Below are positions 4,247 through 52,417 of a stretch of DNA of 64,000 nt, one piece after another. Position 1 is the first letter of the stretch, and each line of letters starts with the position of its first letter. A program made the position numbers and the translations under genes. The notes beneath the pieces are model-generated. The model did no database searches, was not told where the DNA came from, and saw only the letters and a list, made by a program, of their open reading frames with translations. This stretch comes from Deltaproteobacteria bacterium (GTDB lineage: Bacteria > Desulfobacterota > JAFDED01): contig JAFDED010000007.1 in assembly GCA_019310535.1 (NCBI GenBank), positions 1 to 64,000 of the forward strand. Direction: 5' to 3'.

Positions 4247-4379
4247 TGGGCGGTCATCCTTTTCCTCGCGTGAACGTTGCACAGAGCATGAACAGCCTCG
4301 ATTATCATCGGTGCTCACTGAGACAATGCCTCTCCGTCAAGGGTGATCTTATAAACATTTCCTGCCCCATGATTCGACT

Positions 4380-6146: not shown

Positions 6147-6170
6147 GGCATGTTCACTTCTTCATCTTTC

Positions 6171-7331
6171 TTAACGGTGAAACATTTCTCGATAGTTTTG
6201 TTTGCCTTCCCCGTTTGCTTCTTCTAGAAGACGAATATATACCTTTTCGGTCTTTTGAGCCATAATCTCCTCATTGAACCTCTCCATCACTAACTGTCTC
6301 CCTGCTTTTCCCATGGTACGGGCAGTTTTTCGGTCATGAAGCAATGAAATAATCTTTTCCGCCATGGCTCCCGGGTCACTAGGAGGTACCACATATCCGG
6401 TGATACCGTCAAGCACGGAAGATTCGATGGATCCCACGCGGGTGGCTACTACGGGCCGTTCCATGGCCATCGCCTCAAGGATGGAGGTGGGAAAAGATTC
6501 CTTCAGGGAAGAAATTGCAAATACGTCCAGAGCCGCCAATATCGGAGGGACGTCCTCGCGCAAATCCGTAAATATCACCTTTCCCTCGATACGCAGCTCA
6601 CGGGTATACGCTCTCAGCTCTTTGTCCAATGGTCCCTCACCAACCACCAGGAACATTGTGGACGGAATATGGCGGCAGACCTTTTGTGCCGCTTCCAAAA
6701 AATACTGGTGGCCTTTTTTCGGATCCAATCGTCCTACTATGCCCACCAGCGGAACATCGGAGGGGATGTTGAGAGCGGCTCTCACCCCATCCCCCGATAT
6801 GGAAGAATTAAAGAGGCGCGTGTCCACCGCGCTGAAAATTGTCTCGACCCGATGCGGCTCCACGAGTTTGTTGCGGCGAAATTCTTCCCTGACCGCATCG
6901 GAATTAGCGATTACCCTATGGATCAGACGGGTATACAGCCAGCGGTGGACAACATCAGTACCCACGGGATTTGTATTATGCCGTGTCCGTACTACGAGGG
7001 CAGATGGATGCGCCAGCCGCGCGGCCACCACGCCTGCCCACGTATCTTGAGAACCGTGTGTGTGCACTATCCGGATGCCCTTTTCCTCAATGAGTCGCCG
7101 CAGCTTTTGCACCTCAGAGAAATAAATCCACGGATGAAACCCACGGGGGAAACGCAGGTCATCAAAGACATCCAGCCCCTCACTATGAGCGCGACGGGAA
7201 AGGGTGCTGCCGCGGGGCACGGCCAATGTCACGCTATGGCCCCGCTCCCGCAAATGCATGCAAATTTTCAATATGCGGTTGGGCTGCCCTCCCCATCCGC
7301 CCCGGTGCATATTGGTATGCAGGATGCGCAT
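6171..7331 (-). CDS. glycosyltransferase family 4, LPS core/O-chain
   Basis: 386 residues from the ATG at 7331, which begins MRILHTNMHRGGWGGQ, the usual start of the N-terminal Rossmann domain; an in-frame upstream ATG at 7430 gives an unlikely polar extension, and 7340 is also possible. Motifs: the GGWGGQ loop, VGIVGRLDPKKGHQYFLEA in the donor domain, and ESFPTSILEAMAMERPVVAT with the EX7E glutamates. It would act on the cytoplasmic face on undecaprenyl- or lipid A-linked acceptors. It is part of the minus-strand run ending with msbA. The donor sugar is unknown. Confidence 0.85.
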   Translation of the reverse strand: MRILHTNMHRGGWGGQPNRILKICMHLRERGHSVTLAVPRGSTLSRRAHSEGLDVFDDLRFPRGFHPWIYFSEVQKLRRLIEEKGIRIVHTHGSQDTWAGVVAARLAHPSALVVRTRHNTNPVGTDVVHRWLYTRLIHRVIANSDAVREEFRRNKLVEPHRVETIFSAVDTRLFNSSISGDGVRAALNIPSDVPLVGIVGRLDPKKGHQYFLEAAQKVCRHIPSTMFLVVGEGPLDKELRAYTRELRIEGKVIFTDLREDVPPILAALDVFAISSLKESFPTSILEAMAMERPVVATRVGSIESSVLDGITGYVVPPSDPGAMAEKIISLLHDRKTARTMGKAGRQLVMERFNEEIMAQKTEKVYIRLLEEANGEGKQNYREMFHR

Positions 7332-7473
7332 TGATAGCATGATGACACAAACATCCCTTAGAGGATTATCCGGAAGGTAAATGCTTCTTGAGCGTTGACT
7401 CCGGACCCAAAAAGTAACGACCTCCCTCATTGCAAAAACAAACGGGAAGCTTCTTTGTCAAAAGCGGAAAATT

Positions 7474-8214
7474 TCATATAAGCCATTTCTTTATCAGGTG
7501 TTCCCAGTGATAAAACACCGAGGTCCGATAGATCAAACGCAAGAGGCCATTCCGCTGATGCATGGGAATTCTCTTGATCCTGAACAAATCGCGCCGACCG
7601 TGGCGATTGCCCCGCATCACGGTGCAGGCACTTGTGTAGCCTGCTTCTTGTACTTCCCGCTCTACTTCTTCATTAAATTCGCCGAAGGGATAGCAAAACG
7701 AGTGCACCGGTGCACCCAGTTTGTCTTCCAATATCTTCCTGGAATCAACGAGTTCCTTCCGTCTTTCCACCCGGCGCCGTCGGGTCAGGTCGGGGTGAGT
7801 CAGTGTGTGCGAACCGATCTCCATGCCGGCCCGATACATCTCCTGTATCTGATTCCATGTTAAAAGCGGGCCGGCGGTCTTGGGCGACCACTCCCCTATT
7901 CCGCCAATCCGATGCACCACCACGAAAAAAGTACCCACACAGCCATGCAGAGTCAAAAGTGGCAGCACATGTTCATAGTTGTCACGAAACCCATCGTCGA
8001 ACGTGAAAACCACCCTTTTCCCAGGCGCTTTTACCCCATCTTGCAAACAATCAGCGAGTTCGGACATGCGTAATGATTCATAGCCTCGAAGCACAAGAGT
8101 CTTCACATGCTTTCGGAATTGCTCCGGGGGGACAAACAATTGAGATACAGGCACTCCCCTGGGCCTGGCATCGATACCATGGTAGGTTAGGATCGGCACC
8201 GAGATCATGGTCAT
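7474..8214 (-). CDS. polysaccharide deacetylase (NodB-homology, CE4)
   Basis: 246 residues. The NodB signatures are present: TFDDG with the catalytic base and metal Asp, SHTLTHPDL with the two metal His residues, and CYPFGEF as the later motif. There is no signal peptide (it begins MTMISVPILTYHGID), so it is probably cytoplasmic, or membrane-associated through the aromatic/basic C-terminus. In this setting it probably removes an N-acetyl group from a sugar in the LPS, but a glycan-intermediate or peptidoglycan target is not excluded. It sits between two GT4 genes on the same strand. Confidence 0.82.
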   Translation of the reverse strand: MTMISVPILTYHGIDARPRGVPVSQLFVPPEQFRKHVKTLVLRGYESLRMSELADCLQDGVKAPGKRVVFTFDDGFRDNYEHVLPLLTLHGCVGTFFVVVHRIGGIGEWSPKTAGPLLTWNQIQEMYRAGMEIGSHTLTHPDLTRRRRVERRKELVDSRKILEDKLGAPVHSFCYPFGEFNEEVEREVQEAGYTSACTVMRGNRHGRRDLFRIKRIPMHQRNGLLRLIYRTSVFYHWEHLIKKWLI

Positions 8215-8273
8215 TCCACCGATTTGTTTCAGCCGCCATAAAGGACCTGTGGCGTTTACTCCATTAAGCCGCC

Positions 8274-9398
8274 TTAGGCGGGGATCAGTTCCTGATATAA
8301 GTTCTGCATCGATTCTACGTGGGTTTTCACATCGAAAAGACGCTCTGCCCTCTGTTTTCCCGCCTTACCCATGGCAATGCGAAGGGTTGAATCGCTCAAA
8401 AGAGTTTTCAAGGCTTCCGCCAATGCCGATGTGTTCTCAGGGGGCACCAATAAACCGGTTACACCATCCTCTACCACCTCTGGTATGCCCCCCACAGTCG
8501 TAGCGACAACGGGCTTGCCGGCAGACATGGCCTCCACCAGCGCCAGGCCGAACCCCTCTTCCCGGGAGGGCAAAACAGCCACATCTATCGCATTCGTAAT
8601 CCGGTCTATATCGCCACGAAACCCGGTAAAAATCACCGTCCCTGCCGGACAAAGTTCTTGGGCCAGCTCTTCCAGGCATGCTCGGTACCATCGGTCCTGC
8701 CGGGAAGTTTCGCCTGCCAGCAGGAGGGTAATATTGGGGAAGCCTTTCTGCATTACAGCCATTGCGCGAATAAGTGTATCCTGTCCCTTCAGCGGATCTA
8801 ACCGCGATATCATGCCTACCACAAGCCGATCTTTTCCGATGCCCAACTCTTCACGGACTGAATGTCCCCCGGGACGAGGACGAAACCGTTCAAGATCCAC
8901 CCCATCATACACTACCCGCACTCGGGGAATCAGTGTCGGTATGAAACCGGCCATCAGGGCCCTGGATACAGTCACAATGCGTGTTGCCCGATGAATCCTG
9001 TATTTCTGGATTTTGTCCGGAGTCCAACTGCCCCGAATATGACATATAATGGGAATACCCAATCGCCAGGCAGAGCCTATGGCATAAGGGTTATCCCATA
9101 GCGTGTTCGCATGTACCAGATGGATGGGTGTTCGGATTATAATGCGTCGCAGACTCAACAGGGAAAAAGGAATCTTGGGCCAGGATTTTGCCTTTCGCCA
9201 CATCCCCATGGGAACGACCAAATATGGCACTTCCCGCAATTTCAACTCCGACGTGAACTCTCCGTTTGCCGATGTCGCCACCATGGGTGAGAACCGCTGC
9301 CGATCCATCCTCTCCAGAAAATTCAAAAGCCCCCGGATTGAGCCACCCATTCGGGTTACTCCCTGGATAAAGAGGATGTTACGCCGGCAGCCTGTCAT
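8274..9398 (-). CDS. glycosyltransferase family 4
   Basis: 374 residues starting MTGCRRNILFIQGVTRMGGS, with the glycine-rich acceptor-domain loop GGSIRGLLNFL. The donor domain shows GMISRLDPLKGQDTLIRAM and REEGFGLALVEAMSAGKPVVATTVGGIPE, the standard EX7E region. Its start overlaps the stop of the upstream GT4 (9395-9398, ATGA), so the two are translationally coupled. Substrate unknown. Confidence 0.86.
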   Translation of the reverse strand: MTGCRRNILFIQGVTRMGGSIRGLLNFLERMDRQRFSPMVATSANGEFTSELKLREVPYLVVPMGMWRKAKSWPKIPFSLLSLRRIIIRTPIHLVHANTLWDNPYAIGSAWRLGIPIICHIRGSWTPDKIQKYRIHRATRIVTVSRALMAGFIPTLIPRVRVVYDGVDLERFRPRPGGHSVREELGIGKDRLVVGMISRLDPLKGQDTLIRAMAVMQKGFPNITLLLAGETSRQDRWYRACLEELAQELCPAGTVIFTGFRGDIDRITNAIDVAVLPSREEGFGLALVEAMSAGKPVVATTVGGIPEVVEDGVTGLLVPPENTSALAEALKTLLSDSTLRIAMGKAGKQRAERLFDVKTHVESMQNLYQELIPA

Positions 9399-10504
9399 TG
9401 GAGTGCCCCCAATTTGTTGAAAACATCCGCTGTCCGCCGAACCTGGAGGTCAAGGTTGTAATGCTTCTCGACCCGTACGCGCCCATTTCGGGAAAGCTTG
9501 GCACAGAGGTCCGGGCGCGCCAAAATTGATACGATGGCTTCCGCCAGTTCCCCCGGCGCCCGAGGTGATACCAGTATACCGCTGATGCCATTTTCCAGAA
9601 TTTCCCCCGGCCCGCCGACATCAGTCGCCACCACGGGAACCCCCGCAACCATGGCCTCCAGAATGACCAGGCCAAAAGGCTCTTCCCATGACGGCACCGC
9701 CAGGACATCCATCAGTCCCATGGCTGATGAAACGTCTTCGAGAAATCCGGTAAAAAAAAATCTTTTTTCAAGGCCTTTTTGGATGATTTGCGACCGGAGC
9801 TTGCGGACAAATGATCCATTTCCCGACTCCTCTCCCACAACAAGGAAAATTATTCCGGGATGCTGCGTGGAAAGCCTGGCAGCAGCCTCTACAAAATCTT
9901 CATGTCCTTTATGCGGAGAGACCTGTCCGACAATACCCACAACTTTCACCCCAGGAGGAATGCCCAGTCGCTCCCTGAGTTCCCCAATGCTGGTGGGCGG
10001 GAAAAGATGTCCCACTGAAACGCCATTGGGAATGACCACAACACGCGCCGGGTCGATGCCTTCATGCCGGATCAATGCTTCTTTCACACTCTGTGATACC
10101 GCAATAAACCGGTCAACCTTTCGGAAGCACATCCTGTGTAAGGGTGAACGACGCATGGGCAGCAGAAGGTGCCGTGTTAAGACTAAACGGCACCTTTTCG
10201 CACATGCAAGTGCAGCGATCAGATAGTCCCGCCCCACATGGGCATGGATGATATTTGCCCCCAACCGGTTGGATAATCGCCGAAGAGCATAGGCCGAAAC
10301 TAGATCCAGAGAATTTCGAAGCGGCAGAGTATATACGGGGATAGAACATTCTTTAAGTTTTGGTATCAAAGCGCTTTTAGGCCGCACCACCGCTGAAACA
10401 CTGAACCGGTCGCGCGATAAACCCGCCACCAGGTTAAGGAAATGGACCTCACCCCCACCTATATGCATTGCGGAGCTTATCTCTAATACCACCGGGTGTC
10501 TCAT
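9395..10504 (-). CDS. glycosyltransferase family 4
   Basis: 369 residues from the ATG at 10504, which overlaps the stop of the upstream GT2 gene as ATGA; an in-frame ATG at 10534 would lie inside that gene and is less likely. It begins MRHPVVLEISSAMHIGGGEV. The donor domain has GIVGQVSPHKGHEDFVEAA and WEEPFGLVILEAMVAGVPVVATDVGGPGE. Three linked GT4/GT2 genes with ATGA overlaps suggest successive sugar additions to the same outer-core or O-chain acceptor. Confidence 0.86.
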   Translation of the reverse strand: MRHPVVLEISSAMHIGGGEVHFLNLVAGLSRDRFSVSAVVRPKSALIPKLKECSIPVYTLPLRNSLDLVSAYALRRLSNRLGANIIHAHVGRDYLIAALACAKRCRLVLTRHLLLPMRRSPLHRMCFRKVDRFIAVSQSVKEALIRHEGIDPARVVVIPNGVSVGHLFPPTSIGELRERLGIPPGVKVVGIVGQVSPHKGHEDFVEAAARLSTQHPGIIFLVVGEESGNGSFVRKLRSQIIQKGLEKRFFFTGFLEDVSSAMGLMDVLAVPSWEEPFGLVILEAMVAGVPVVATDVGGPGEILENGISGILVSPRAPGELAEAIVSILARPDLCAKLSRNGRVRVEKHYNLDLQVRRTADVFNKLGALQ

Positions 10505-11271
10505 TCCCACTTTTCCAGCCGAAGGCGCTCCCATGCCTTCACGTATTTAAGCATAACGTAATAGGAGCTCAGCGCGCATAGCACAAGGCCGTGGAAGCCG
10601 TCCAGAAAGCCCAGTTTTAACACATACATCCTGAAAAACGTTGCCAGTGGACGCAGAATGATCTTGTCAGCACCCACGGGTTTCCCCTTTTTGACCACAT
10701 CCCCGGCTGACCAGTCGGTGTAACGATGTATCTTTTCAAGATAATGGGAAATGTTGCGGTATGATCTATGCACGAACGGGGAGCGAAGTTTTCCCACACG
10801 TCCCCCGTCCACCACAACGTCGGCATGCACCTCTTTGTTTTCATACCGCCCTTTGTCGCGCTTGAACAGGCGTACATTCGTATCATCCCCGGGACCCCAG
10901 CCGCAGTACCGTATCGGACGCCCCAGAAAGATGTTCCGCCGTGGGATAATAAAGCCGTCGAAGCCCTGCGGGTCGGCCAGCACGGATTCTATTTCCTGGC
11001 GCAGCTCTGGGCTCACCCGTTCATCGCAATCCACCACAAGGACCCACTGATGCGCGGCTAACGGGATTGCCCAGTTCTTCTGAGCAGCGGAATTAACGTA
11101 TTCATGCTGGAGTACCCGATCAGTATATTGCCGGGCCAGCTCAACGGTACGATCCGTACTGTAAGAGTCAACTACTAGTATCTCATCCGCCCAGGTCAAT
11201 CCTTTAAGGCAGCCCTCGATGTTTCCCTCTTCGTTGAACGAGGGCACAAGCACAGTAAGTTTCTCTCTCAT
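10501..11271 (-). CDS. glycosyltransferase family 2, WaaE/KdtX-like LPS core transferase
   Basis: 256 residues with a GT-A fold: VPSFNEEGNIEGCLKGL, then LVVDSYSTDRTVE, and the metal-binding DCDER. The later region FDGFIIPRRNIFLGRPIRY.GW and RLF is typical of WaaE-like beta-glucosyltransferases acting on the first heptose of the core. A hydrophobic stretch near residues 205-240 suggests membrane attachment. A strong promoter lies just upstream (11314-11342), so this is probably the first gene of a unit running to msbA. The exact sugar is inferred from the family, not shown. Confidence 0.82.
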   Translation of the reverse strand: MREKLTVLVPSFNEEGNIEGCLKGLTWADEILVVDSYSTDRTVELARQYTDRVLQHEYVNSAAQKNWAIPLAAHQWVLVVDCDERVSPELRQEIESVLADPQGFDGFIIPRRNIFLGRPIRYCGWGPGDDTNVRLFKRDKGRYENKEVHADVVVDGGRVGKLRSPFVHRSYRNISHYLEKIHRYTDWSAGDVVKKGKPVGADKIILRPLATFFRMYVLKLGFLDGFHGLVLCALSSYYVMLKYVKAWERLRLEKWE

Positions 11272-11313
11272 GTGAGGGTATGTCCCATTTGTTCATGGCA
11301 TATAACTGAAAAT

Positions 11314-11342
11314 TGTATAGCACAGCCCTGGTATATGGTCAA
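11314..11342 (-). promoter_or_regulatory. sigma70-type promoter for the GT2-GT4-GT4-deacetylase-GT4-msbA run
   Basis: Reading the minus strand, TTGACC (11342-11337) and TATACA (11319-11314) are separated by 17 bases. The start point would be near 11307, giving a leader of about 36 bases to the ATG at 11271. The rest of the 346-base gap 11272-11617 contains no credible gene. Confidence 0.6.
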
Positions 11343-11617
11343 GAATACCCGACTTTCAACCAGGCACCCATGGACAAAAGAGGACCGGATCCCCTGGTTA
11401 TTGAGGGTGTCGATAAATGAGATTTACATGAATTCGGCCCTTGTAAAATCAACGAGTTGCCTGATCAATATTGTTAAATTCCTGCGATTTTCGACAGCCT
11501 CTATTAGGAGGCGGCAGCGTCATATTTCCGGCGGAACCTTCCATTCAGGTGAGCATTCAGGTTAATGCAAGCCCGTCTCCCGGCGGGAAATCCTTTTGAG
11601 CATGGAGCAAGATGCAA

Positions 11618-12655
11618 TTATACAATCTCGCGAACCGCTGCAAAAACCTCATCGATGCGGATTGAGCGTATGCACACGGGATCGGGACATTGGCGGCGGT
11701 AGCATCCGGAGCAAGGCAAGGGGGAATGGAGAATCCGGGAAGTGTTGCCATATGGGCCGTTCCGATGCGGGTCTGATGGGCCAAACAGAGCCACCGTCGG
11801 GACGCCCAGAGCAGCGGCGATGTGGAGCGGTCCGGTGTCGCTCCCAATGAAAAGACGGCATTTGCTCAATAGCGCTGCCAGTTGACGGATGTCGGTAGGT
11901 GGTGCAAGAAAAACGCCCCGACCTGCTCGGCGGACAAGCTCATGTGCCTGTCGGCCTTCCGCTTCGCCGCCCCATGTAACGACTACGGGAAAGCCCAGCA
12001 CATCCACGATGCGTTGCGCAAGGGCCACATAGCGATCCTGGGGCCAGCGCTTCGTCGGCCACGATGCACCCGGGTTGATTACAATCGGCCCACTTTCCCG
12101 CCGGTTCAACCGGGAGATAAATTCTTCAGCATGACGTTCGTCTTCCCTGCGAAGAAGGATCTGGAAACGACGATCAGGCTCAATAATACCCAGTGGGCGC
12201 AGCAGTTCCAATTGCTGATCCACAATGTGTGTGTCGGCCCGAGTCTGGACGTGGAGGTTGTTGAACCTGGCGCTGAAAGGCTCCCGACATCGGCTTCGGT
12301 GGTACCCGATGCGGAGCCGAGCCCCTGTTATTCGGGCAATGAAGCCACTTTTGATCAGCCCCTGGAGATCCAGTGTAAGATCATATTCAGCGCTCCGCAG
12401 TTGGCGGATTGTCTCCGCCATCTCCTGCAAAGCCGAAAGGCTCTTTCGTTGACGCCACCTTTTAGTGCGGAGGATAAGAGCACGGCTCAAGTCCGGGTTA
12501 TCCTCCAGAATTGATGCTGAGGTCTCTTCCACGGCCCAGTCTATCCGGGCTTCGGGATAGATGGATCGGAGCGTGCGCACCACTGGCAACGCCATGACAA
12601 CGTCCCCCAGGGCGCTGGTTCGAATCAGGAGGATTCTCCGCGGAGTTTTTGTCAT
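11618..12655 (-). CDS. GT9 ADP-heptose:LPS heptosyltransferase (WaaC/WaaF superfamily)
   Basis: 345 residues from the ATG at 12655, which overlaps the upstream heptose adenylyltransferase stop (ATGA); an in-frame start at 12751 would lie inside that gene. The family start RRILLIRTSALGDVVMALP is clear, with INPGASWPTKRWP in the donor domain and the ADP-heptose site GSDTGPLHIAAALGVP followed by GPSDPHRNGPYG. The DLQGLIKSG stretch is closer to heptosyltransferase I/WaaC than to WaaF. It would add L,D-heptose to the Kdo or heptose region in the cytoplasm. Confidence 0.83.
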   Translation of the reverse strand: MTKTPRRILLIRTSALGDVVMALPVVRTLRSIYPEARIDWAVEETSASILEDNPDLSRALILRTKRWRQRKSLSALQEMAETIRQLRSAEYDLTLDLQGLIKSGFIARITGARLRIGYHRSRCREPFSARFNNLHVQTRADTHIVDQQLELLRPLGIIEPDRRFQILLRREDERHAEEFISRLNRRESGPIVINPGASWPTKRWPQDRYVALAQRIVDVLGFPVVVTWGGEAEGRQAHELVRRAGRGVFLAPPTDIRQLAALLSKCRLFIGSDTGPLHIAAALGVPTVALFGPSDPHRNGPYGNTSRILHSPLPCSGCYRRQCPDPVCIRSIRIDEVFAAVREIV

Positions 12656-13161
12656 CCCGATTCCAGCCGTTTTTTTGCCTTCTTCAGCATTTCGGTGGAA
12701 GAGTGCTCTTTGGGATCGCCGGTAATGGCGATGCGGCCTCCATATGACCAAACAGTCTGCCTCTCGGGGACGCTCTCTTCCGTGTAGTCAGTTCCTTTGG
12801 CGTGGATATGGGGGCGCAGACTCAGGAGGAGCCTGCTGACATCTGAATCGTCAAAAGGCAGAATATAATGCACACACCTGAGTTCCGCGAGAATCTCCAT
12901 ACGTTCGGACAAGGGCATAAAAGGTCGACCCGGCCCTTTGATCCGTCGGGCGGATTCGTCGCTGTTGACAGCCACGATCAGGAGGTCTCCACAAGCTCTT
13001 GCACCGCGTAAATAGCGGATGTGCCCAACGTGAAGCAAATCAAAGCATCCATTGGCAAAAACAATGGTTTTGCCCCTCTGGCGTTCTTGTTCAATTTCGG
13101 GAATTAAATTTTCCAAAGATCTTATCCGGGCTGGTTCAAGGGGATCCATCGAGTGTCTCAT
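12652..13161 (-). CDS. rfaE2: D-glycero-beta-D-manno-heptose 1-phosphate adenylyltransferase (HldE C-terminal domain as a separate protein)
   Basis: 169 residues of the nucleotidyltransferase fold: FANGCFDLLHVGHIRYL contains the HxGH signature, and NSDESARRIKGPGRPF follows. It makes ADP-D,D-heptose from heptose 1-phosphate and ATP, the donor precursor for the heptosyltransferases on either side. In E. coli this activity is fused to the kinase as HldE; here kinase and adenylyltransferase are adjacent genes overlapping by ATGA at 13158-13161. Confidence 0.9.
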   Translation of the reverse strand: MRHSMDPLEPARIRSLENLIPEIEQERQRGKTIVFANGCFDLLHVGHIRYLRGARACGDLLIVAVNSDESARRIKGPGRPFMPLSERMEILAELRCVHYILPFDDSDVSRLLLSLRPHIHAKGTDYTEESVPERQTVWSYGGRIAITGDPKEHSSTEMLKKAKKRLESG

Positions 13162-14180
13162 GAAGGTCCCTCCATATCCGAATTTACGGCAGCGTGCAAC
13201 TCACCGGCACTGATGGTGGCCGTCCCTCTTTTCATTACAACAAGGCCGCCCGCCATGTTGGCCAATTGCGATGCATCAACCATATCAGCCCCGGCGACCA
13301 GCCCAAGGGTGAACGTGGCGATCACCGTATCGCCGGCACCGGTCACGTCGGCGATTTCATCGGTCCCGTAAATGGAGAGGTGAGTCGTGGGTCTGCGGGG
13401 CTGGAAAAGAGCCATACCTTTCCGCCCGCGAGTGATAAGGACTCCCTGGGGTTGAATGGCTTCCAGGACAGTCCTCCCCGCTTTTTCGAGCGTCCCGTCG
13501 TCCAGGCATATTCCCAATGCGTCCTCGATTTCCTCCTCATTGGGAGTGACAGCGGTAACGTGATGAAACTTAAGAATGGAGCGGCGGGAATCCACTGTAA
13601 TAATGCCCTTATCCTCACGGGCCAACCGAACAACCTCTTCACTGACGGCATCGTTGATAATGCCCAGGGAGTAATCCGAGACCAGTAGGGCGTCCCATTG
13701 TCCGCGAGACCGCCGCAGCTCTCCAAGAATTCGCTCATGAGTGCCGGCCAGCGGTTTCCGCTCAGGCTCGCGGTCAATACGGATGACTTGCTGCTTGGTA
13801 GTGTTTTGCCCGCCTGCCAGGATTCGGGTTTTAGTTGTTGTAACAGCTCCCTGTTCAATAATTATATTGCGCGTATCCACGCCGCTTCGATTCAGGATCT
13901 CGAGTAATCGAAGACCAATTTCGTCATCACCCACCACTCCCAGGGGGACGGGATGGGCTCCCAGTGCCTTCAAGTTTGCCGTGGCATTCCCGGCGGCCCC
14001 CGGGGCGAGCATTTCCGAATCATATTTCAGGATCAAAACCGGCGCTTCACGGGATACCCGGGAGCTCATTCCCAGGATGTAGCGATCCGCCACCAGATCC
14101 CCCACAACCATGATCCTCTTCCCCGCGAATTTCCCGATGATCTCTTTATATTTCCTCTGTCTGTCCATCCGAAAAAACAT
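13158..14180 (-). CDS. rfaE1: D-glycero-beta-D-manno-heptose-7-phosphate kinase (PfkB family)
   Basis: 340 residues of the ribokinase/PfkB family. Near residue 35 it carries ILGMSSRVSREAPVLILKYD, the substrate-recognition region of HldE kinases; the C-terminal anion hole and catalytic base are in DVTGAGDTVIATFTLGL. It phosphorylates heptose 7-phosphate at C1. An in-frame ATG four codons later is an alternative start. Neither gmhA, gmhB nor hldD is in the window, so the remaining ADP-heptose steps must be encoded elsewhere. Confidence 0.9.
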   Translation of the reverse strand: MFFRMDRQRKYKEIIGKFAGKRIMVVGDLVADRYILGMSSRVSREAPVLILKYDSEMLAPGAAGNATANLKALGAHPVPLGVVGDDEIGLRLLEILNRSGVDTRNIIIEQGAVTTTKTRILAGGQNTTKQQVIRIDREPERKPLAGTHERILGELRRSRGQWDALLVSDYSLGIINDAVSEEVVRLAREDKGIITVDSRRSILKFHHVTAVTPNEEEIEDALGICLDDGTLEKAGRTVLEAIQPQGVLITRGRKGMALFQPRRPTTHLSIYGTDEIADVTGAGDTVIATFTLGLVAGADMVDASQLANMAGGLVVMKRGTATISAGELHAAVNSDMEGPS

Positions 14181-14288
14181 TCATGAGGGAGCAATCCTCA
14201 ACGCCCTGCTCGGTGTATCTCGCGTCAGAAGAATCGCCCGCAAAAATCGAAAACGCATCCCGAAACGGATTCCTCCAAGTATTTCATG

Positions 14289-15245
14289 CTAATGTGTAAC
14301 TGTAATTTGATATGCCACAGCGCGCAAAACATCGTCAACGGAGATGGCCTTCATGCATTCGAAGTTGCGGTCGCATTTTCGTTTCCCACATGGCGCGCAG
14401 GGGACATTCGCCTGGATAATGGAGCATGGTCCACTGTACGGAGCGGTGATGCGGGGATCGGTGGAACTAAATATGGCCACCACCGGAGTTCCCACAGCAG
14501 CGGCAACATGCATTGGGCCTGTACCCACCAATGTAAAAGAAGGTTCATGCATTTGTCGCCTGACTTCTTCCACGCGATTTAGATCGCCTGAGCCACCGAA
14601 AAAGACCACAGAAGCTCCAAAATGCTGGACAATGAGGTCCGCCACCCTGGCGAATCGAGAAGAAAGCCACATTTTTGCATCACTGTTCTGCGCTCCAGGG
14701 AGAAGGCCCACCAAAGGCCGACTCGTGTCGACTCTCTTTTGTTCAAAGATCCGGGCTGCCTGAAGGCGTTGTTCATCATTAATCGCTAATCTTGGAGCCG
14801 AGGCGACGGGTTCCAACCCGATGGCCCGCAGGATCTCCAGATAATATTCAACCATGTGGAGGGAGCAGGCCCCCTCATTCCTTGCCAGGGAATGGGTTAA
14901 CAACAAGCCTCGACCATCCGACCTGTAGCCCGCTCGCACCGGGATTCCTCCCAAAAAGCTCAATAGTGCCGCCCTGAATGAGTTGGGCATAAGCACCGCC
15001 AGATCGTACCCTCCATTGCGTATGGAAGCTGCCATACCAAGCAAGGTACGGTATCTTCCCTGCGCCTCGTAGAACCAGACTTTGTCCAGGGTTTTATACG
15101 CTTCCAGCAATTTGGCAACCCATGATCTGGCCAGAGCATCGATGCGCGAATGGGGATATGCCTCGCGAAGTCTGTCAACGGCGGGCAAGGCCATAACAGT
15201 ATCCCCAATCCAACTGGGCATGAACACAAGGATATTGTTGTACAT
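14289..15245 (-). CDS. waaF: GT9 heptosyltransferase II-like (WaaF), apparently with an internal in-frame deletion
   Basis: 318 residues from the ATG at 15245 (a GTG at 15287 would add 14). WaaF features: ILVFMPSWIGDTVMALPAVD, LMPNSFRAALLSFLGGIPVRAGY and LLPGAQNSDAKMW. The expected region between the last beta strand and the ADP-heptose loop is missing: FTLVG runs straight into TGPMHVAAAVGTPVV, where relatives have about 20-25 more residues including the Asp of the DTGPMH motif. The GT9 at 11618 keeps that region. The protein may therefore be impaired, or the assembly may have lost about 70 bases in frame. Confidence 0.78.
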   Translation of the reverse strand: MYNNILVFMPSWIGDTVMALPAVDRLREAYPHSRIDALARSWVAKLLEAYKTLDKVWFYEAQGRYRTLLGMAASIRNGGYDLAVLMPNSFRAALLSFLGGIPVRAGYRSDGRGLLLTHSLARNEGACSLHMVEYYLEILRAIGLEPVASAPRLAINDEQRLQAARIFEQKRVDTSRPLVGLLPGAQNSDAKMWLSSRFARVADLIVQHFGASVVFFGGSGDLNRVEEVRRQMHEPSFTLVGTGPMHVAAAVGTPVVAIFSSTDPRITAPYSGPCSIIQANVPCAPCGKRKCDRNFECMKAISVDDVLRAVAYQITVTH

Positions 15246-15312
15246 AGACGAATCCGCTTGACGTTTTTTATAAACTTTGCGCGTCACATCGATGTACCTG
15301 GTCCGTGTAGAT

Positions 15313-15486
15313 TCACTTGTCCAGGGGAATGGCCTCGTCCTTAAGCATCACGGGAATATCGTCCTTGATTGGGTACATAAGCCGGCAGGCCTCGCAAATC
15401 AGCCCATCCTGCTCCTCGTTCAAGTGGATTTCCCCCTTGCACTCAGGGCAGACAAGAATCTCCAATAGTTCCTGTCTAATAGTCAT
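15313..15486 (-). CDS. Trm112/YcaR-like zinc-ribbon peptide (UPF0434)
   Basis: A 57-residue protein. It begins MTIRQELLEILVCPECKG and has a second Cys pair in LICEACRLMYPIKDDIP, the pattern of the Trm112/YcaR family: four Cys for a zinc ribbon, then the MYPI.DDIPVML strand. AAGGAGGAT lies 5-13 bases before the ATG, and a good promoter precedes that. In many Proteobacteria this small gene lies next to lpxK or kdsB, so its place among LPS genes is usual. Its bacterial role is not well established; eukaryotic Trm112 activates methyltransferases. Confidence 0.85.
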   Translation of the reverse strand: MTIRQELLEILVCPECKGEIHLNEEQDGLICEACRLMYPIKDDIPVMLKDEAIPLDK

Positions 15487-15515
15487 ATATATCCTCCTTG
15501 AATTACAGTATGTGT

Positions 15516-15544
15516 ATGTTAGCCCGGAACGGCTGAAAGGTCAA
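15516..15544 (-). promoter_or_regulatory. sigma70-type promoter for the Trm112-like gene and downstream waaF/hld genes
   Basis: On the minus strand, TTGACC (15544-15539), 17 bases, TAACAT (15521-15516). The predicted start near 15509 is about 23 bases upstream of the ATG at 15486, with an ideal ribosome binding site between. It sits just beyond the left edge of the dispersed repeat (15557). Confidence 0.5.
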
Positions 15545-15556
15545 ACTCTTTGTATT

Positions 15557-15718
15557 ATAGAATTATCCACTTTGATCAGCAACATATTGATCAGCGATAT
15601 TACAGTCAAATCTCCGCCAATAATAGATAAAGAATGTTGTTGGGGTGACCCGGACGACTTGTCGTCCGGGTCGCGAAGCGACAAGAGGTTTAGCCGGTAT
15701 TGAATCACAGCTTTCGGT
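15557..15718. repeat. dispersed repeat, copy A (about 162 bp)
   Basis: Nearly identical to 36883-37053. It begins ATAGAATTATCCACTTTGAT and ends in CACAGCTTTCGGT. It contains a perfect 12-bp hairpin, GACCCGGACGAC-TT-GTCGTCCGGGTC (15647-15672), and an alternative stem CTTGTCG/CGACAAG. The two copies differ by scattered substitutions and one 9-base indel (absent here). The rest of the gap up to the lpxL-like stop at 15892 has nothing else I can name. Confidence 0.8.
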
Positions 15719-15891
15719 TTGTATTATCATTCCAGTGTCTCGGCAAAGTGAGATGATGTTGGGGCCATGGAAGGGATTTTCCGGAGCCGGGAATCTTATA
15801 AAGATGATATTCAGGCATGTAATCCCGATTCCGGACAAGGCGAACCCAACGGCACGGCACAAGATCATTGAGATGCGCTCCCTCAACGCCT

Positions 15892-16848
15892 TCAATCTGG
15901 CTGCGGCGAATCCTTCGGCCTTGTCTTCCATCGGCGATGCATCCATACCCATTGGTCAGGAAATTGTCGAATATACCGCTCGACGATATCCATGCAGGAC
16001 TGGGTGATCCGGCGAATTTCCTGTTCCCGATCTTCTGATGGGTTCGCCACGATGGGTTCTTCCATGTAAACGCGGTGGAGACCATCATCGTCCCGTGCAA
16101 TAAAAACCGGTACAATGGGTGCTCCTGAGGCGAGGGCGAGTATGGCCGGTCCCCGGGCCGTATATGTCGGTTGATTGAAATGGCTGACGAAAATACCGTT
16201 AAAATGCGAATCCTGATCAATCAAGATTGCCAATATCTCTTTGTCTCGAAGGTGTCGAAGCATATGGACGATACGCTCATCGCGAAACACCATGGCCACG
16301 CCCGCTCTCGACCGGCTCTGGTAAAGAAGACGATCGATACGGGAATCCCGGATCCGGTTGGCAACCACCCGCGTGGGGAAACCAAGGGCCGAGGCGGCAC
16401 AGGCCAAAAGCTCCCAGTTGCCCAGATGGGCTGATACGATGATAACCCCCCTCCCCTTTTCCAGAGCACGCGTCAGCCGATCAATGTTATCAATATGGAG
16501 ATGCTTCAGAAGATCGTATTTCCCACCATAGAACCGGAAAAGCTCGATGGCGCTGCGCCCGAGGTTTCGAAAAACCGCCCGCATTACGCGCTCCCGTTGT
16601 TCAGAGCGCCACCGGGGAAAAGCTGTTTTCAGGCTTTGATCTGCCTGCATTTTATTCTTGCGCGCGCATTTGTGCCATATTCCCGACATGACCTCTCCCA
16701 TCCCAAACGCCAGAGACTCTGGAAGAATGATCGCCAATCCGCGTGTTATCCGGATTAAAACGAAAAGAAGGTGCCACTGAAACCAGCGTCGGATCGATCT
16801 TATTCGTTTATGGAGAGACCGCATGTATTTTTTGGAAAATTTTCCCAC
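15892..16848 (-). CDS. lpxL: Kdo-dependent lipid A acyltransferase family (LpxL/HtrB)
   Basis: 318 residues with an N-terminal hydrophobic anchor (HLLFVLIRITRGLAIILP). The acyltransferase HX4(D/E) motif is in VSAHLGNWELLACA, followed by the conserved RDSRIDRLLYQSR and LIDQDSHFNGIFVSHF. It would add a secondary acyl chain to Kdo2-lipid IVA at the inner membrane. Only one such gene is in the window. The start is 16848, or 16824 by a second ATG. It follows lpxK by 167 bases. Confidence 0.87.
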   Translation of the reverse strand: MGKFSKKYMRSLHKRIRSIRRWFQWHLLFVLIRITRGLAIILPESLAFGMGEVMSGIWHKCARKNKMQADQSLKTAFPRWRSEQRERVMRAVFRNLGRSAIELFRFYGGKYDLLKHLHIDNIDRLTRALEKGRGVIIVSAHLGNWELLACAASALGFPTRVVANRIRDSRIDRLLYQSRSRAGVAMVFRDERIVHMLRHLRDKEILAILIDQDSHFNGIFVSHFNQPTYTARGPAILALASGAPIVPVFIARDDDGLHRVYMEEPIVANPSEDREQEIRRITQSCMDIVERYIRQFPDQWVWMHRRWKTRPKDSPQPD

Positions 16849-17015
16849 TGGATATCATTTCAGGCCCGGTATGCATTCTCAGCAGCCAGAATGCGGTCGC
16901 TTTCATTGGGGCCGCTCCCGGCTTCACCTATAACCCAAGCCCCATCCGACGAAAGACCTAACCATGGAGAGTGGGTTCTATAATGGAATACATTCTAAGT
17001 CTGAACAAAATCCCT

Positions 17016-18137
17016 TTACCGTTCATGCATTTCTATGCGTTCCAACAAAAAACTCAGAAATGGCTCATGTTCTATGATTTCCTGCTCAACCGCCAGCGCG
17101 AGGATATCTGAAACTCTCCCACCCAGTTTAACCATGTCCTTTTCGGTCGTGATAACACAATCGGCCTTTCGGGCGCGGCCCTCAATCCAGGGCAGGATCC
17201 TGTCGGGATAGCGGTAATGATCCGTAAACAGGCAAGAATTGATCACCTGAGCCCCGAGGGACGACAAAGTTGAGAGGAAATGCTCTGCGTCGGCCACTCC
17301 GGCCACAGCACACACATTAGCTCCTCGGAGTTCCTGAACAGCACGCCGCGCTCCCTTTGCATCCACAAGGGCAACCGCGCGGTAACGAGCATGGAAAACG
17401 GGTGCCGTGGGGTTCCAGCGACGTGCCGCCAATTCACCTCGACCAGGCTCAAGACGGCCATCCCACTTTGTAAGCAGAATGGCGCTCGCCCTGGCCAGAG
17501 CTTCGGGCGACTCCCGCAATGGACCGGCCGGCAGAACCCGTCCATTTCCAAGGCCGTACCGGGAATCGATCAGGGTCAAATCGATCTGCCTATCCAAAGA
17601 AAGGTGTTGAAAGCCGTCATCCAGTACGATTAGATCCGCTCCGAAGCGCTCCACGGCCTCCAGGCCCGGGTTTATGCGCCGTCGACCGATCAACACCGGA
17701 GTGTCTGGCAACGATTCGCCGATCAAAACTGGCTCGTCCCCGGCCTCACGAAATCCCATAAGAAGATTATGGCCGTCGGACACCACATTGCTCCTCCCTC
17801 GCGCCCTGCCTCGATACCCCCGGCTGATAACCGCCGGATGACGCCCTGCTTCCTTGAGAATACGGGCAAGGAGGATCACCGTGGGGGTCTTTCCCGTACC
17901 TCCGACGGTAAGGTTTCCCACGCTTATGACCGGGCACGGCAGACGATGAATCCTCAGACAACCGGATCGGTAAAGCCTGCCCCGCAGCTTCATCCCTTCG
18001 GCATAAAGAGAGGACAACGGGATCAGCAAAGGCCATACCGTCCCCTGGATCCTACGAAAGCGGCTCCATCTGTACGGCACTTGATCGATCATACGGAAGG
18101 CCAGTTTACTTATTTTCTTTTCCAAACAACCCGTCAT
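17016..18137 (-). CDS. lpxK: tetraacyldisaccharide 4'-kinase
   Basis: 373 residues from the ATG at 18137; the frame stays open to 18590, but that part overlaps waaA and does not look coding. The P-loop GNLTVGGTGKTP is in the family position, with VISRGYRGR and LIVLDDGFQHLSLDRQIDL after it; DDGFQH carries the catalytic Asp/His pair. It phosphorylates the 4' position of the lipid A precursor at the inner membrane. It starts 29 bases after the waaA stop. The N-terminus is slightly longer than usual, so the start could be the later ATG at 18092. Confidence 0.88.
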   Translation of the reverse strand: MTGCLEKKISKLAFRMIDQVPYRWSRFRRIQGTVWPLLIPLSSLYAEGMKLRGRLYRSGCLRIHRLPCPVISVGNLTVGGTGKTPTVILLARILKEAGRHPAVISRGYRGRARGRSNVVSDGHNLLMGFREAGDEPVLIGESLPDTPVLIGRRRINPGLEAVERFGADLIVLDDGFQHLSLDRQIDLTLIDSRYGLGNGRVLPAGPLRESPEALARASAILLTKWDGRLEPGRGELAARRWNPTAPVFHARYRAVALVDAKGARRAVQELRGANVCAVAGVADAEHFLSTLSSLGAQVINSCLFTDHYRYPDRILPWIEGRARKADCVITTEKDMVKLGGRVSDILALAVEQEIIEHEPFLSFLLERIEMHER

Positions 18138-47779: not shown

Positions 47780-49201
47780 TCAACTTCCTCTGTGTTCTTG
47801 CATTCTGCTAAGGAACCCCTGAAAACGCTCCTCAATGGAACGGATCCGGGCTGCCCATTCTTTATGGGCCAGAACGTTCTGCTGCAGGAGAGAATTGGCT
47901 TTATTGACAGTCTCAACCCGCACTCGCTCCAGCGTGCGGAGGATATGAATACGCTGGTTGAATTTTCTCCAGCCGGAGCGAAAAAGAACCTCGTCCTCGG
48001 CCAGGATCTGTATCTCCTGATCCGAGAGAATGGACTGTTCGTATTTGCGGTCGATCATGGCTACCTGTTTGGTAAAGTAGTCCAGGATCGCCTTTCTCAC
48101 AGGCTCAGGGTCGGATTCCAGTTCTTGCTGCAGGTTCAAGGCACGGGTGATTGAGTCGATAACCATGGGGTTCATCCCCTCAATGCCGGCGCCCACTCGG
48201 GTTACCTCCAGGAATTGTTCCGCTGCCCAACTCCGCTGTCCGCTGTTGAGCAGGGCTCTGGCCAAACGGTAGTGGGCCTCCAGGTCATCGGGGTGGTAGA
48301 GGACAAAGGCTTGCAAGTACATGGCAGCTTCAGCGTAACGACCCATTCTATATGCTTGCATTCCCTGGCCCCGGAGCTTATCAGAAGATACATGCACCCG
48401 ATCCAACGCTTCTTCAAAACTTTTTTTTGCGGCAGGATTAAGGTTTCGAGAACGGGAGAAGTTAACCAGAGCCTCCAGCCAACGGCCTTTTTTGGCATGG
48501 AGAAGCCCTTGATAGTACATGGCTTCTATGCGCTGAGGCGAGCTGTCCGGAATCCGGCCCAGATAATCCATGGCCAGATCGTATTTTCCCTGGCGAACGT
48601 ACTCGGCCCCTAAAAACAGGAGCGTCATATCTGATTTATTCTTTATTTTTTCCAGCCTTGAAACATAAGGACGGAATTCTTCGGGTTTTCCCTGTTTTTT
48701 CGTAACCCAGGCAAGGACGAGGTAGGCACGCTCCTGGTTTTCATCCAGCTTGATGGACTTCTTCAGGTGCTTACTTGCTCGCTCCAGCGAGGCTTCTTCC
48801 CAGCCGGCCCCCTCAGGGTCAGAGGCGAAGTCGTAGTAAGCTTTGCCCAACTGATAGTGCGCCAGAGCCGAATCTTTATCCTCGGCGACCGTTTTTTGAG
48901 CGTCGATCAGGGGCTTGAATTTTCTGTAGAGTAAATTTCGATCATTTTCAAAGGGTTTGCCCCCTGCCTCATAAAGCTTATACGCCTCGTAATATTCCAT
49001 TCGGCTTACCAGTTGGTCGGCTTTTTTCTGGCGTTCGGTGGCCTCTCGGATTTGCATTTGGTCGGCAATGTCGTCCAAAACGGTGCGTTCTATCTGTTGG
49101 CTTCCAACCGTGGTTACAGGGCCTCTTGGGGCCGGGCCGCAGTTGGACATTAAACACACTGACATCGCAAAAAGAAATGCTGGATATAAAATCCGTGGCA
49201 T
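47780..49201 (-). CDS. TPR-repeat lipoprotein, partner gene of the E2-like fusion
   Basis: 473 residues. It has a signal sequence with a lipobox-like end (MSVCLMSNCG; Asn at -1 is unusual). Then come several TPR-like helix pairs, the clearest being DSALAHYQLGKAYYDFA, RAYLVLAWVTKKQGKPEEF, PQRIEAMYYQGLLHAKKGRW and DLEAHYRLARALLNSGQ. The C-terminal 120 residues are helical. It is probably periplasmic and membrane-anchored. It begins 51 bases after the stop of the 1054-residue E2-like protein, whose C-terminal half should also be periplasmic, so the two may form one complex. Confidence 0.75.
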   Translation of the reverse strand: MPRILYPAFLFAMSVCLMSNCGPAPRGPVTTVGSQQIERTVLDDIADQMQIREATERQKKADQLVSRMEYYEAYKLYEAGGKPFENDRNLLYRKFKPLIDAQKTVAEDKDSALAHYQLGKAYYDFASDPEGAGWEEASLERASKHLKKSIKLDENQERAYLVLAWVTKKQGKPEEFRPYVSRLEKIKNKSDMTLLFLGAEYVRQGKYDLAMDYLGRIPDSSPQRIEAMYYQGLLHAKKGRWLEALVNFSRSRNLNPAAKKSFEEALDRVHVSSDKLRGQGMQAYRMGRYAEAAMYLQAFVLYHPDDLEAHYRLARALLNSGQRSWAAEQFLEVTRVGAGIEGMNPMVIDSITRALNLQQELESDPEPVRKAILDYFTKQVAMIDRKYEQSILSDQEIQILAEDEVLFRSGWRKFNQRIHILRTLERVRVETVNKANSLLQQNVLAHKEWAARIRSIEERFQGFLSRMQEHRGS

Positions 49202-49252: not shown

Positions 49253-52200
49253 CTAACCTATTTTCTTTTGGATCTTCAACAGTAGTGTTTTTTCCCTCGC
49301 CAGAGGCTCTTCCAGGGAATCCACCCCCGCCAGGAACTCTTTCATCTCCGCAATGCGATTTTTCTTGCCGGAAATCTCTTGCCTGGCATCCGCCAGTGCT
49401 CTCCGGAGACGCCGCCGCTCCTGAAGAAAGTCCTTGATACTCTCTTCAATGGTGCGGACTTTATCGGATTTCTCCTGGCTTGCACGAAACAGTTCACGGG
49501 CCCTCTGCTTGCTGAATTCATAGGTAGGCTTATCCACCTGTTGATATTGCACGCTGTTGCGGTATGCTTCTCCCTGAAGCCGGATTCGGTCGTCGATGGT
49601 TTTAACGGTGCTGCGATGTTGGTCCAGTTCGGCGGTGATCCGTTTGAGTTCGGTTTTCAATGCCTTGAGTTCCTCGGACAGACCAGCCTCTTTGGAATAG
49701 CGGGTTTCGAAGGATTTTATGTCGGTCTCCTTATCAACCAGTCCAAAGGTATCGGATTCTATTTCTTCGCTTAATCGGGTGATATCCTCAGCGTATCGAT
49801 CTCTTTTGCGGTGGAGGTCGTTAATTTTGCGCTCAATTTCCTGCAAACGGTCCTGAACCGTTTGTCGAAACCGGCCGGTCAACTCGGCAACTTCGGTCTT
49901 TTGATGATTCAGGCCCTGGAGGGCTTGGATGGATTGAAAGGCCTCGGCCCACTGCCGTGCCTTCATATATTTGGTGCTCAGCATCAACAGAACCGATACG
50001 CGATCCCGGACGGCTCTGGCGCGCAATTGTTCCCCCTCTGCAAGGGCTTGAATCATTGCTTCCAGCAGTTTATCCGCCTGTTCCAGCTTTCCCTGAGCTG
50101 CCCACGTCTCGGCCCGTCCGATTTGAGCGCGGGAGATATTCATGATTTTTTGCTCGATATTCTGATCCCGTCCTCCGCTGAGCATGGCCTGTGCATAAGC
50201 CCGCAGCGCTTTATCCCATTGATTGGATTTGGCGAACCGGTCTCCTTCTTCCATTTTCATGGAGTATAAGGCGTCAGCCCGCAATTCCTTCATATGCGTA
50301 CGCGTCAGCAAGGGCGGTGGACTGGCTTGATCAATCTTCCGAATTGCCAGCCGATATTCCCGCTTTTCCATCAAAATAACGGCATCGTTGAGGTTCTGTC
50401 TCTCCAGAGTGTAGTACCCTCCCAATACCGCCACCGCCAGGAGGATCGCCAGAAAAATATACAGTCCCATACGGCTGGCATGAGCCACCACCTCTTTGTG
50501 GTGAGTTATTTTCCGCAGTCTGGCGATGGCCTGCTGAGCCTCGGCGTTGTCAGGATCAATGCTCTGTACTTTTCGCCATTCCTGAGCGGCCGCTTCGAAC
50601 CTTTTTTCGTCCTGAAGGCGTTCCGCTTCGCACTTATGGAAAAGAACCTTTTCCATGCGCTCTATTTCCACGCGGAGAGCTTTCAGGTCCCCTTCTCTCT
50701 TCCTGGCCACAGGAGTGATGAGGGACGCGAAGTGCATATGGGCGCGCGCAATCTCAACGTCCATGGCCTTTAATCTCTGGCGAGCACCACGCAGTTTTGA
50801 ATCGAACCGCCATTCCAGCGTGCGGTCGATCTCATCATAAACGGATTGATCCTGGGTGAGCCGCCGGAGATTCTGGTATTCATCCAGAGCTTCCTGGATT
50901 TGACCGGTATCGAATAAACGTGACGCCGTGCTCTTGATTCGCTCGATCTCCTGGTGGAGCTCCTTTTTTTGGAGCGCCTCCTCTGCCGTGGATTTCAGAG
51001 CTTCGAATCTGCTATCTCCAAGGCAATACGGCGAGATTGATGACAGTGCGGCCAGGGCCTTTTCCGGAAAACCGGCTTCTACGTTGACAGCCGCTTCATC
51101 AAGTGTGTTGGCAATCTCCCTGCGAAGTGCTTCTTTCTCCGCAATACCCTCCCTTATAGCTTCAAGGAGTTCACCGTATTCCGCTTCCTCCCCAAGAATA
51201 GGCTTGAGTGCTTCCATCCGCGGCAGGGCATTTTCGGGATCACCGGACAGAAGCATCTGCCGGGCCTCTTCCATTTCCTTCAGTGCCTCGGCTTTTCGCT
51301 TCCTTTTATCCTCAACAATCTGTCTGGTGGAACGAATCAACTCTTCAAAAGAAAGATCCTCTCCCAGGCGATCGGTCAGGCCTTCCAAGAGGATCAGCGC
51401 TTCTTCTTCCCGGTCTTCATTGATCAGGCCTCTTGCCTTTTCCATCTCCTGAACGGCTTCCCGGTGCTTTGCTTCTTCTTCTTCCACAGCTTGTCGAAGA
51501 GCCTCCTGCAACTCCTGGAAAGTCATCTCGCCGGAGAAAGCGGGCTCGATTTTTTCTGCTGCTTGTAATGCGCTCTGGAGGTCGCCTTTCTTCAAGAAAG
51601 CCCATGCCTCTTCCTTCAAGTCAAGTGCCTTTTTCTTCTTTTCCTCACGGGCCTGAATCGCTTTCCGGATTTTCCCCAGCACTTTGCGAAAATGTTTCTC
51701 CTCACCAGCGGTCGGTTCCAGAGGCTCGAGAAGTTCCAGGGCTTGTTCCAGGAGCCCCGATTCCAAATGTTTTTCCGCTTTCCGGATGGTATCTTCCTGA
51801 CGCTTGAGTTCTTCGCGCGCACTGGCTATTCTTTGCTGGACGGCAGGGTGAACAGATAATTCGGAATCAGCTTCCCATTCTTCCAGTGCCTGCCGGTAAG
51901 CTCCACGGGTGAACAACTCCTCGCCTCTTGCAAGAAGCCGCTCCCGGTCGCGCCAGCGCGAATCGGGCACCAGTGGGGATGGATCGATGGGGAATAGGTT
52001 CTTTTTTTTGGAAGCCCACTGTGCGGCCTTTGTATTTAGGACATCTTTTAATTCGTATTTCTGAAAAGAAAGCAATTCACCAACGAACAGGATTATTTCG
52101 CAGAGGTCACCGGTGGCCGCCCAAACCGATCCAACATCCACTATCTCACCAATGTTCGGGTGGAAAACGGGGGTGAGAATGATGCATTGAGGCGGTTCTT

Positions 52201-52417
52201 CGGGATATTTTCCCGGAAGAACTACCTCTATTTGTGCTGAGGATATTTTCGCCACTTCTCGCTTGGGCGTGAGGGTAAGGCTTTTGATTTGGTATTCAAG
52301 TTTATACCGTTCCGGAGGGTCTCCCGTGGTCTCTATGATTCGAACCAAGCTATCGGAATCAAAGACTCTCAGGATTTTCTCCCGGTCTTGCTGAAGTCGC
52401 TCCTGTCGTCGGGGCAT
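49253..52417 (-). CDS. large membrane protein with an N-terminal ubiquitin-conjugating-enzyme (E2)-like domain, TPR/coiled-coil regions and one membrane segment
   Basis: 1054 residues. Residues 1-145 follow the E2 fold: N-terminal helix, beta meander, KYPEEPPQCIILTPVFHPNI (70-89, with the HPN triad at 86-88), Trp99, helix ILFVGELLSF and DVLNTKAAQWA (125-135), then LFPID. The distance Trp99 to ELL is 17 residues, as in eukaryotic E2s. The catalytic Cys position (in GEIVDV, 90-95) is not Cys; Cys106 is seven residues after Trp and probably structural. Residues 150-640 are charged TPR-like/coiled-coil repeats. One membrane helix lies at 650-672, followed by TPR-like (675-860) and coiled-coil (860-1040) segments, probably periplasmic. 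GGAG precedes the ATG. Its own promoter is at 52501-52529. I do not know a function. Confidence 0.72.
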   Translation of the reverse strand: MPRRQERLQQDREKILRVFDSDSLVRIIETTGDPPERYKLEYQIKSLTLTPKREVAKISSAQIEVVLPGKYPEEPPQCIILTPVFHPNIGEIVDVGSVWAATGDLCEIILFVGELLSFQKYELKDVLNTKAAQWASKKKNLFPIDPSPLVPDSRWRDRERLLARGEELFTRGAYRQALEEWEADSELSVHPAVQQRIASAREELKRQEDTIRKAEKHLESGLLEQALELLEPLEPTAGEEKHFRKVLGKIRKAIQAREEKKKKALDLKEEAWAFLKKGDLQSALQAAEKIEPAFSGEMTFQELQEALRQAVEEEEAKHREAVQEMEKARGLINEDREEEALILLEGLTDRLGEDLSFEELIRSTRQIVEDKRKRKAEALKEMEEARQMLLSGDPENALPRMEALKPILGEEAEYGELLEAIREGIAEKEALRREIANTLDEAAVNVEAGFPEKALAALSSISPYCLGDSRFEALKSTAEEALQKKELHQEIERIKSTASRLFDTGQIQEALDEYQNLRRLTQDQSVYDEIDRTLEWRFDSKLRGARQRLKAMDVEIARAHMHFASLITPVARKREGDLKALRVEIERMEKVLFHKCEAERLQDEKRFEAAAQEWRKVQSIDPDNAEAQQAIARLRKITHHKEVVAHASRMGLYIFLAILLAVAVLGGYYTLERQNLNDAVILMEKREYRLAIRKIDQASPPPLLTRTHMKELRADALYSMKMEEGDRFAKSNQWDKALRAYAQAMLSGGRDQNIEQKIMNISRAQIGRAETWAAQGKLEQADKLLEAMIQALAEGEQLRARAVRDRVSVLLMLSTKYMKARQWAEAFQSIQALQGLNHQKTEVAELTGRFRQTVQDRLQEIERKINDLHRKRDRYAEDITRLSEEIESDTFGLVDKETDIKSFETRYSKEAGLSEELKALKTELKRITAELDQHRSTVKTIDDRIRLQGEAYRNSVQYQQVDKPTYEFSKQRARELFRASQEKSDKVRTIEESIKDFLQERRRLRRALADARQEISGKKNRIAEMKEFLAGVDSLEEPLAREKTLLLKIQKKIG

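Follow-up and report, generated by a model that had tools for sequence, protein, structure and literature searches.

Described bacterial E2 systems and the layout of the window gene

To our knowledge, accounts of bacterial E2-like proteins deal almost exclusively with components of conjugation or antiphage operons. UEV and RWD domains, by comparison, dock proteins with an E2 fold that lacks the catalytic cysteine. In the Bil, Bub, PolyUbl and CBASS operons, the E2 is encoded together with an E1 and a JAB protease or a ubiquitin-like protein (Ubl). The bacterial PolyUbl operons contain a UBC domain that is described as inactive, alongside polyubiquitin-like, JAB and E1 genes (reviewed in PMC11354881).

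The gene analyzed here lies in a 64,000-nucleotide stretch of contig JAFDED010000007.1, hereafter the window. In contrast to the E2s of the four operon types, it is encoded without these partners and has no PADLOC match. Like the PolyUbl UBC domain, its E2 domain is bacterial and, by prediction, inactive, but the Ubl/E1/JAB set that accompanies the former (PMC11354881) was not found for it. With eukaryotic UEV and RWD domains it shares an E2 fold without the catalytic cysteine, which those domains use for binding; unlike them, its listed structure matches are catalytic E2s, its RWD match is sub-threshold and no partner E2 was found. NCBIfam and PADLOC searches of the window protein gave nothing near a cut-off, and no relative was found on the viral contigs searched, so that there was no sign of a phage module. 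The gene, its parts and the adjoining TPR gene are laid out as follows.

49253..52417, minus strand: whole gene for a pseudo-E2, helical-repeat, transmembrane, TPR and coiled-coil protein of 1054 aa (ATG at 52417)
51968..52417, minus strand: E2 (UBC) domain, residues 1-150 (PF00179, AlphaFold2, Foldseek)
52154..52162, minus strand: HPN motif, residues 86-88 (alignment of 85 sequences)
52136..52138, minus strand: Asp94 codon, at the catalytic-cysteine position (aligned to the L010 and L031 E2s)
50966..51820, minus strand: five tandem 57-residue helical repeats, residues 200-484 (self-alignment, offset 57)
50498..50650, minus strand: TPR on the N side of the membrane helix, residues ~590-640 (TPR_11/TPR_2 sub-threshold at 594-628; collinear profile match)
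50414..50470, minus strand: single predicted transmembrane helix, residues ~650-668 (hydropathy; 4 K/R before, 1 after)
49910..50260, minus strand: predicted periplasmic TPR region, residues ~720-836 (hhalign to Desulfobulbales tails; TPR_7 sub-threshold at 729-745)
49268..49870, minus strand: C-terminal coiled coil, residues ~850-1050 (SMC-like matches at 763-1043, far below cut-offs; sequence inspection)
47780..49201, minus strand: TPR protein of 473 aa, probable lipoprotein (51 bp downstream of the pseudo-E2 gene, same strand)

The reading frame at 49253-52417 (minus strand) is intact and free of internal stops, the single open frame comprising 1061 codons. Along the protein, the E2 head is followed by the five repeats, a TPR, the transmembrane (TM) helix, TPR-like helices and the coiled coil. 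The fusion of an E2 domain to a TPR/coiled-coil membrane scaffold, which the original prediction had described, was thus recovered, with one predicted TM helix (~650-668) and TPR-like repeats on both sides of it. Exactly one such helix was predicted, with positive charge on its N side; from hydropathy and charge alone, and by the positive-inside rule, we infer that the E2 head faces the cytoplasm and the tail the periplasm (N-in/C-out). The five repeats are 21-35% identical to one another, and the offset-57 self-alignment scored 254, whereas none of 500 shuffles exceeded 64. This array (50966-51820, minus strand), which the original prediction did not mention, is apparently absent from the Desulfobulbales relatives discussed below.

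The E2 fold and the catalytic position

An E2 fold had been proposed for the block at residues ~70-145. The UQ_con profile (PF00179; curated cut-off 27 bits) scored 30.4 bits against the whole 1054-aa protein and 34.4 bits against residues 1-150; this was the sole PF00179 match in the whole 4.8-Mb assembly, and 14 control genomes gave none. A phmmer search of the PDB returned eukaryotic E2s, with UBE2T the best at 3.9e-6. AlphaFold2 modelled residues 1-155, using 48 homologues, at a pLDDT of 92.4 and a pTM of 0.88, with elements in the order found in E2s (helix, strands, long loop, helices). All 50 of the 50 Foldseek matches listed for this model were E2s or complexes or fusions containing an E2 (E ~1e-5, TM ~0.6-0.7), while the RWD profile stayed under its cut-off (14.5 versus 22.8 bits). 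Residues 1-150 are a true E2/UBC domain: the structure prediction with its Foldseek search and the UBC profile search each returned the proposed fold.

We aligned 85 E2 domain sequences, in which P34, P35, H86, P87, A131 and P143 are invariant. The alignment placed Asp94 of the window protein opposite the catalytic cysteine of two relatives encoded in E1/JAB clusters (L010 and L031), confirming that the expected cysteine is absent. Trp99 was rejected as a direct substitute for it, since this residue aligns with a conserved W motif that follows the cysteine (84 of 85 sequences) while Asp94 occupies the cysteine position itself. Cys106 is unlikely to be a displaced nucleophile, as it is not conserved in relatives.

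The window protein retains HPN at 86-88. Although H86 and P87 are present in 85/85 sequences, the HPN asparagine is limited to the window protein and the two E1/JAB-cluster relatives. Of the 85 domains, 34 have Cys at the active position, 47 have Arg, 2 have Ala, 1 has Asp and 1 has Tyr. Read as pairs of the HPN-asparagine and cysteine positions, members of the membrane-TPR family have N/D (the window), D/C (32), D/R (47), A/A (2) or D/Y (1). Thus, all 32 Cys-bearing family members have HPD instead of HPN, and the complete Asn and Cys pair occurs only in the two cluster relatives and in no family member, window included. Arginine characterizes the Desulfobulbaceae, cable bacteria among them, and separately Desulfobia.

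When the cysteine column was left out of the tree building, the states at this position required 5 changes on the resulting tree, compared to an average of 29.9 after shuffling, and strongly supported branches forced at least 2 of them. As read from these sequences, the distribution shows that the cysteine was lost independently at least twice in this orphan membrane-anchored E2 family. The window member, from the sole genome of its class in the comparison, forms a long branch. Its description as 'UEV-type' holds for the loss of the cysteine, as an analogy; descent from UEVs does not, since the structural matches listed are E2s of the catalytic kind, the genome yielded no second E2 and relatives keep the cysteine, all of which argue for a separate bacterial loss.

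The two cluster relatives illustrate conjugation-type settings. The L031 locus (assembly G341, 3904-14217) is a complete cluster of ThiF (E1), JAB, FHA, Prok-RING_1 and E2 genes, followed by DnaJ-like, AAA ATPase and subtilase-like genes. Its E2 comes from the same phylum, is 34% identical to that of the window and likewise lies at the N terminus of a longer protein; unlike the window protein, it has HPN with a cysteine and a C-terminal zinc ribbon, and lacks the TPR/TM array. L031 may represent the kind of system from which a window-type E2 came. In L010 (G076, 7587-17077), the E1, Cys-bearing E2 and JAB-like genes adjoin a proteasomal-type AAA ATPase and two proteins of the Pup-ligase family (PF03136, 335 and 293 bits), a single cluster combining ubiquitin-like with Pup-type components.

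Desulfobulbales relatives of the membrane-anchored E2

Within the phylum, the E2 profile matched in 12 of 395 genomes. Scanning 84,980 species genomes yielded 80 loci (of 86 confirmed), nearly all of them Desulfobulbales by title, from Desulfobulbus, Desulfogranum, Desulfocapsa, Desulfurivibrio and the cable bacteria Electrothrix and Electronema; because the single peptide pattern used for this does not fit the window protein itself, members resembling it may have escaped. One TM helix was predicted in 76/76 full-length members, with an excess of K/R on its N side in 63 of the 76. As in the window protein, these relatives have an N-terminal E2, TPRs, a single TM helix and further TPRs, and lack conjugation neighbours.

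The window E2 head matched the family heads with an E-value of 1.6e-32, at 27-35% identity over the domain to Desulfobulbales members. Since phmmer found no direct sequence match between the window tail and the family tails, we compared the tails as profiles. Hhalign returned a collinear TPR-TM-TPR alignment, TM on TM, at a probability of 87% (51% with the TM masked); as controls, 20 shuffles reached at most 1.4% and the TPR lipoprotein 1.6%. The match ended before the conserved C-terminal domain of the family. Taken together, the head match and the collinear tail profile suggest that, most likely, the window protein belongs to the Desulfobulbales family as an old member and did not arise as an independent fusion.

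There are nonetheless clear differences. The window protein combines Asp94 with HPN, whereas Desulfobulbales members combine Cys, Arg, Ala or Tyr with HPD or HPA; it has the additional array of five 57-aa repeats; and it ends in a coiled coil, in contrast to the conserved C-terminal alpha/beta domain of the relatives. That domain, in a Desulfobulbales member (L035:11537-12046), was modelled at a pLDDT of 92.7, and a Foldseek search of the PDB found no match at E <= 0.001 and only weak similarity to NTF2-like structures.

No family name was found for these E2-TPR-TM-TPR proteins, and this orphan membrane E2 family was without a description in the literature searched, whose coverage missed key papers. 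The window protein would be an outlier within a family that has attracted little notice and is common in Desulfobulbales. An order-wide, membrane-anchored orphan family places the E2 fold outside conjugation in bacteria, like the eukaryotic UEV and RWD domains, and suggests that in bacteria the fold has come to serve as a docking module that is membrane-bound and non-enzymatic.

It might be argued that the domain, joined to a TPR protein, is instead a degenerate and functionless leftover of a former E1/E2 system. The missing cysteine, the missing E1/JAB partners and the long branch of the window domain fit such a history, but the six residues invariant in 85 sequences, the retention of the domain across a whole order and the long, intact reading frame of the window gene do not, and we consider it highly improbable.

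Conjugation partners, neighbouring genes and proposed role

The window assembly is 95% complete, and the absences of partners reported here are bounded by that completeness and by the searches run. As originally noted, no ThiF/E1, JAB or ubiquitin-like gene lies nearby; the neighbours of the window gene are the TPR protein, an ABC transporter and housekeeping genes. Such genes were likewise absent, as far as searched, from the rest of the assembly. In the genome-wide search, the only full match to ThiF was a MoeB-like protein of 279 aa, which we rejected as a candidate conjugation E1 because it is MoeB; one sub-threshold JAB match was rejected as a candidate protease because it is RadC. PF00240 detected no ubiquitin in the window genome, and PF00179 no second E2 with which a UEV-like protein could pair.

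These results, together with the loss of the cysteine and the membrane scaffold, lend support to the proposed non-conjugating use of the fold, although the 32 relatives that keep the cysteine count against extending it to the whole family. One could suppose that Cys-bearing members work as E2s, receiving a ThiS/MoaD-type Ubl from a MoeB-like E1, and that only some lineages, including that of the window, have become inactive. Beyond those 32 members, two Cys-bearing relatives do sit in real E1/JAB clusters, MoeB/ThiF proteins occur in most genomes examined and one Cys genome has a JAB beside ThiF. Nevertheless, each of the 32 has HPD in place of HPN, family loci have no dedicated E1/JAB/Ubl neighbours, no PF00240 ubiquitin was found in the Cys genomes searched, and on more than one occasion the cysteine was lost from a gene that was itself retained. 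A JAB above cut-off was found in only 1 of 4 Cys genomes of this family, and the ThiF protein beside it is a common sulfur-pathway arrangement. We therefore regard such cryptic conjugation as unlikely.

E2 faces commonly bind beta-grasp proteins, and the head could instead be a non-covalent receptor for Ubl-fold proteins, for which UEVs provide a precedent and with which the retained HPN loop of the window protein is compatible. Since PF00240 yielded no Ubl candidate in the window genome and no conserved Ubl neighbour was noticed across 80 loci, this seems a rather remote prospect; it also overlaps with docking in general, from which it differs solely in the ligand.

We consider it probable that the window protein is a bitopic inner-membrane TPR scaffold whose dead E2 head docks a cytoplasmic partner and relays its state across the membrane. 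Without thioester chemistry, the head would bind its partner protein in the manner of UEV and RWD domains, and the bound state would be communicated through the repeat array and TM helix to the TPR/coiled-coil tail in the periplasm. In the window organism, that tail might work with the TPR lipoprotein of the adjoining gene. The 473-aa protein is probably a lipoprotein, with an imperfect lipobox, and its gene and the pseudo-E2 gene are likely co-transcribed. It was rejected as a conserved partner, since no close homologue was found in 197 other genomes of the phylum, and without conserved linkage the idea of this partner is not directly transferable.

In Desulfobulbales, a divergent gene for a DUF4388 (PATAN) protein lay within 1.5 kb in 63 of the 72 loci with enough upstream sequence, and was kept where other neighbours vary (L035-L042). 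In several lineages the protein also carries a cyclic-nucleotide-binding (cNMP) domain. Judged by this linkage, the cNMP-DUF4388/PATAN protein is a likely cytoplasmic partner or co-regulator there, and a second-messenger signal may be relayed to an envelope complex. PATAN proteins act on the type IV pilus apparatus in cyanobacteria (PMC7690835), which offers a lead for Desulfobulbales. In contrast to most Desulfobulbales loci, the window has no such neighbour. A search of its genome found no DUF4388 protein, which led us to reject this protein as a partner in the window organism; the idea thus does not carry over to it directly. More broadly, a conjugating E2 may repeatedly have become, in bacteria, the cytoplasmic receptor of a TPR machine that spans the envelope and that in Desulfobulbales, cable bacteria among them, is tied to PATAN proteins and second messengers; we offer this generalization tentatively and hold it to be somewhat doubtful. 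If true, the E2 fold would be in use outside any ubiquitin-like pathway. Since Cys and non-Cys forms coexist in related, partly cultured species, the role of a cysteine-less E2 is directly testable.

Some loci departed from these patterns. In some Desulfobulbaceae (e.g. L050), the DUF4388 protein has no cNMP domain. In L073 and L083 (by gene clustering also L075, L105 and L113), from cable bacteria and their kin, the divergent DUF4388 gene is absent and replaced by a Sua5/YciO-like gene. In the bacterial assembly G341, which also holds L031, a reading frame on contig C12 (L168, 1459-2049, minus strand) matched ubiquitin over PF00240 positions 1-53 at ~60 bits; the match lies behind a hydrophobic, signal-like segment and stops before the usual C-terminus, and Fic-like genes adjoin it.
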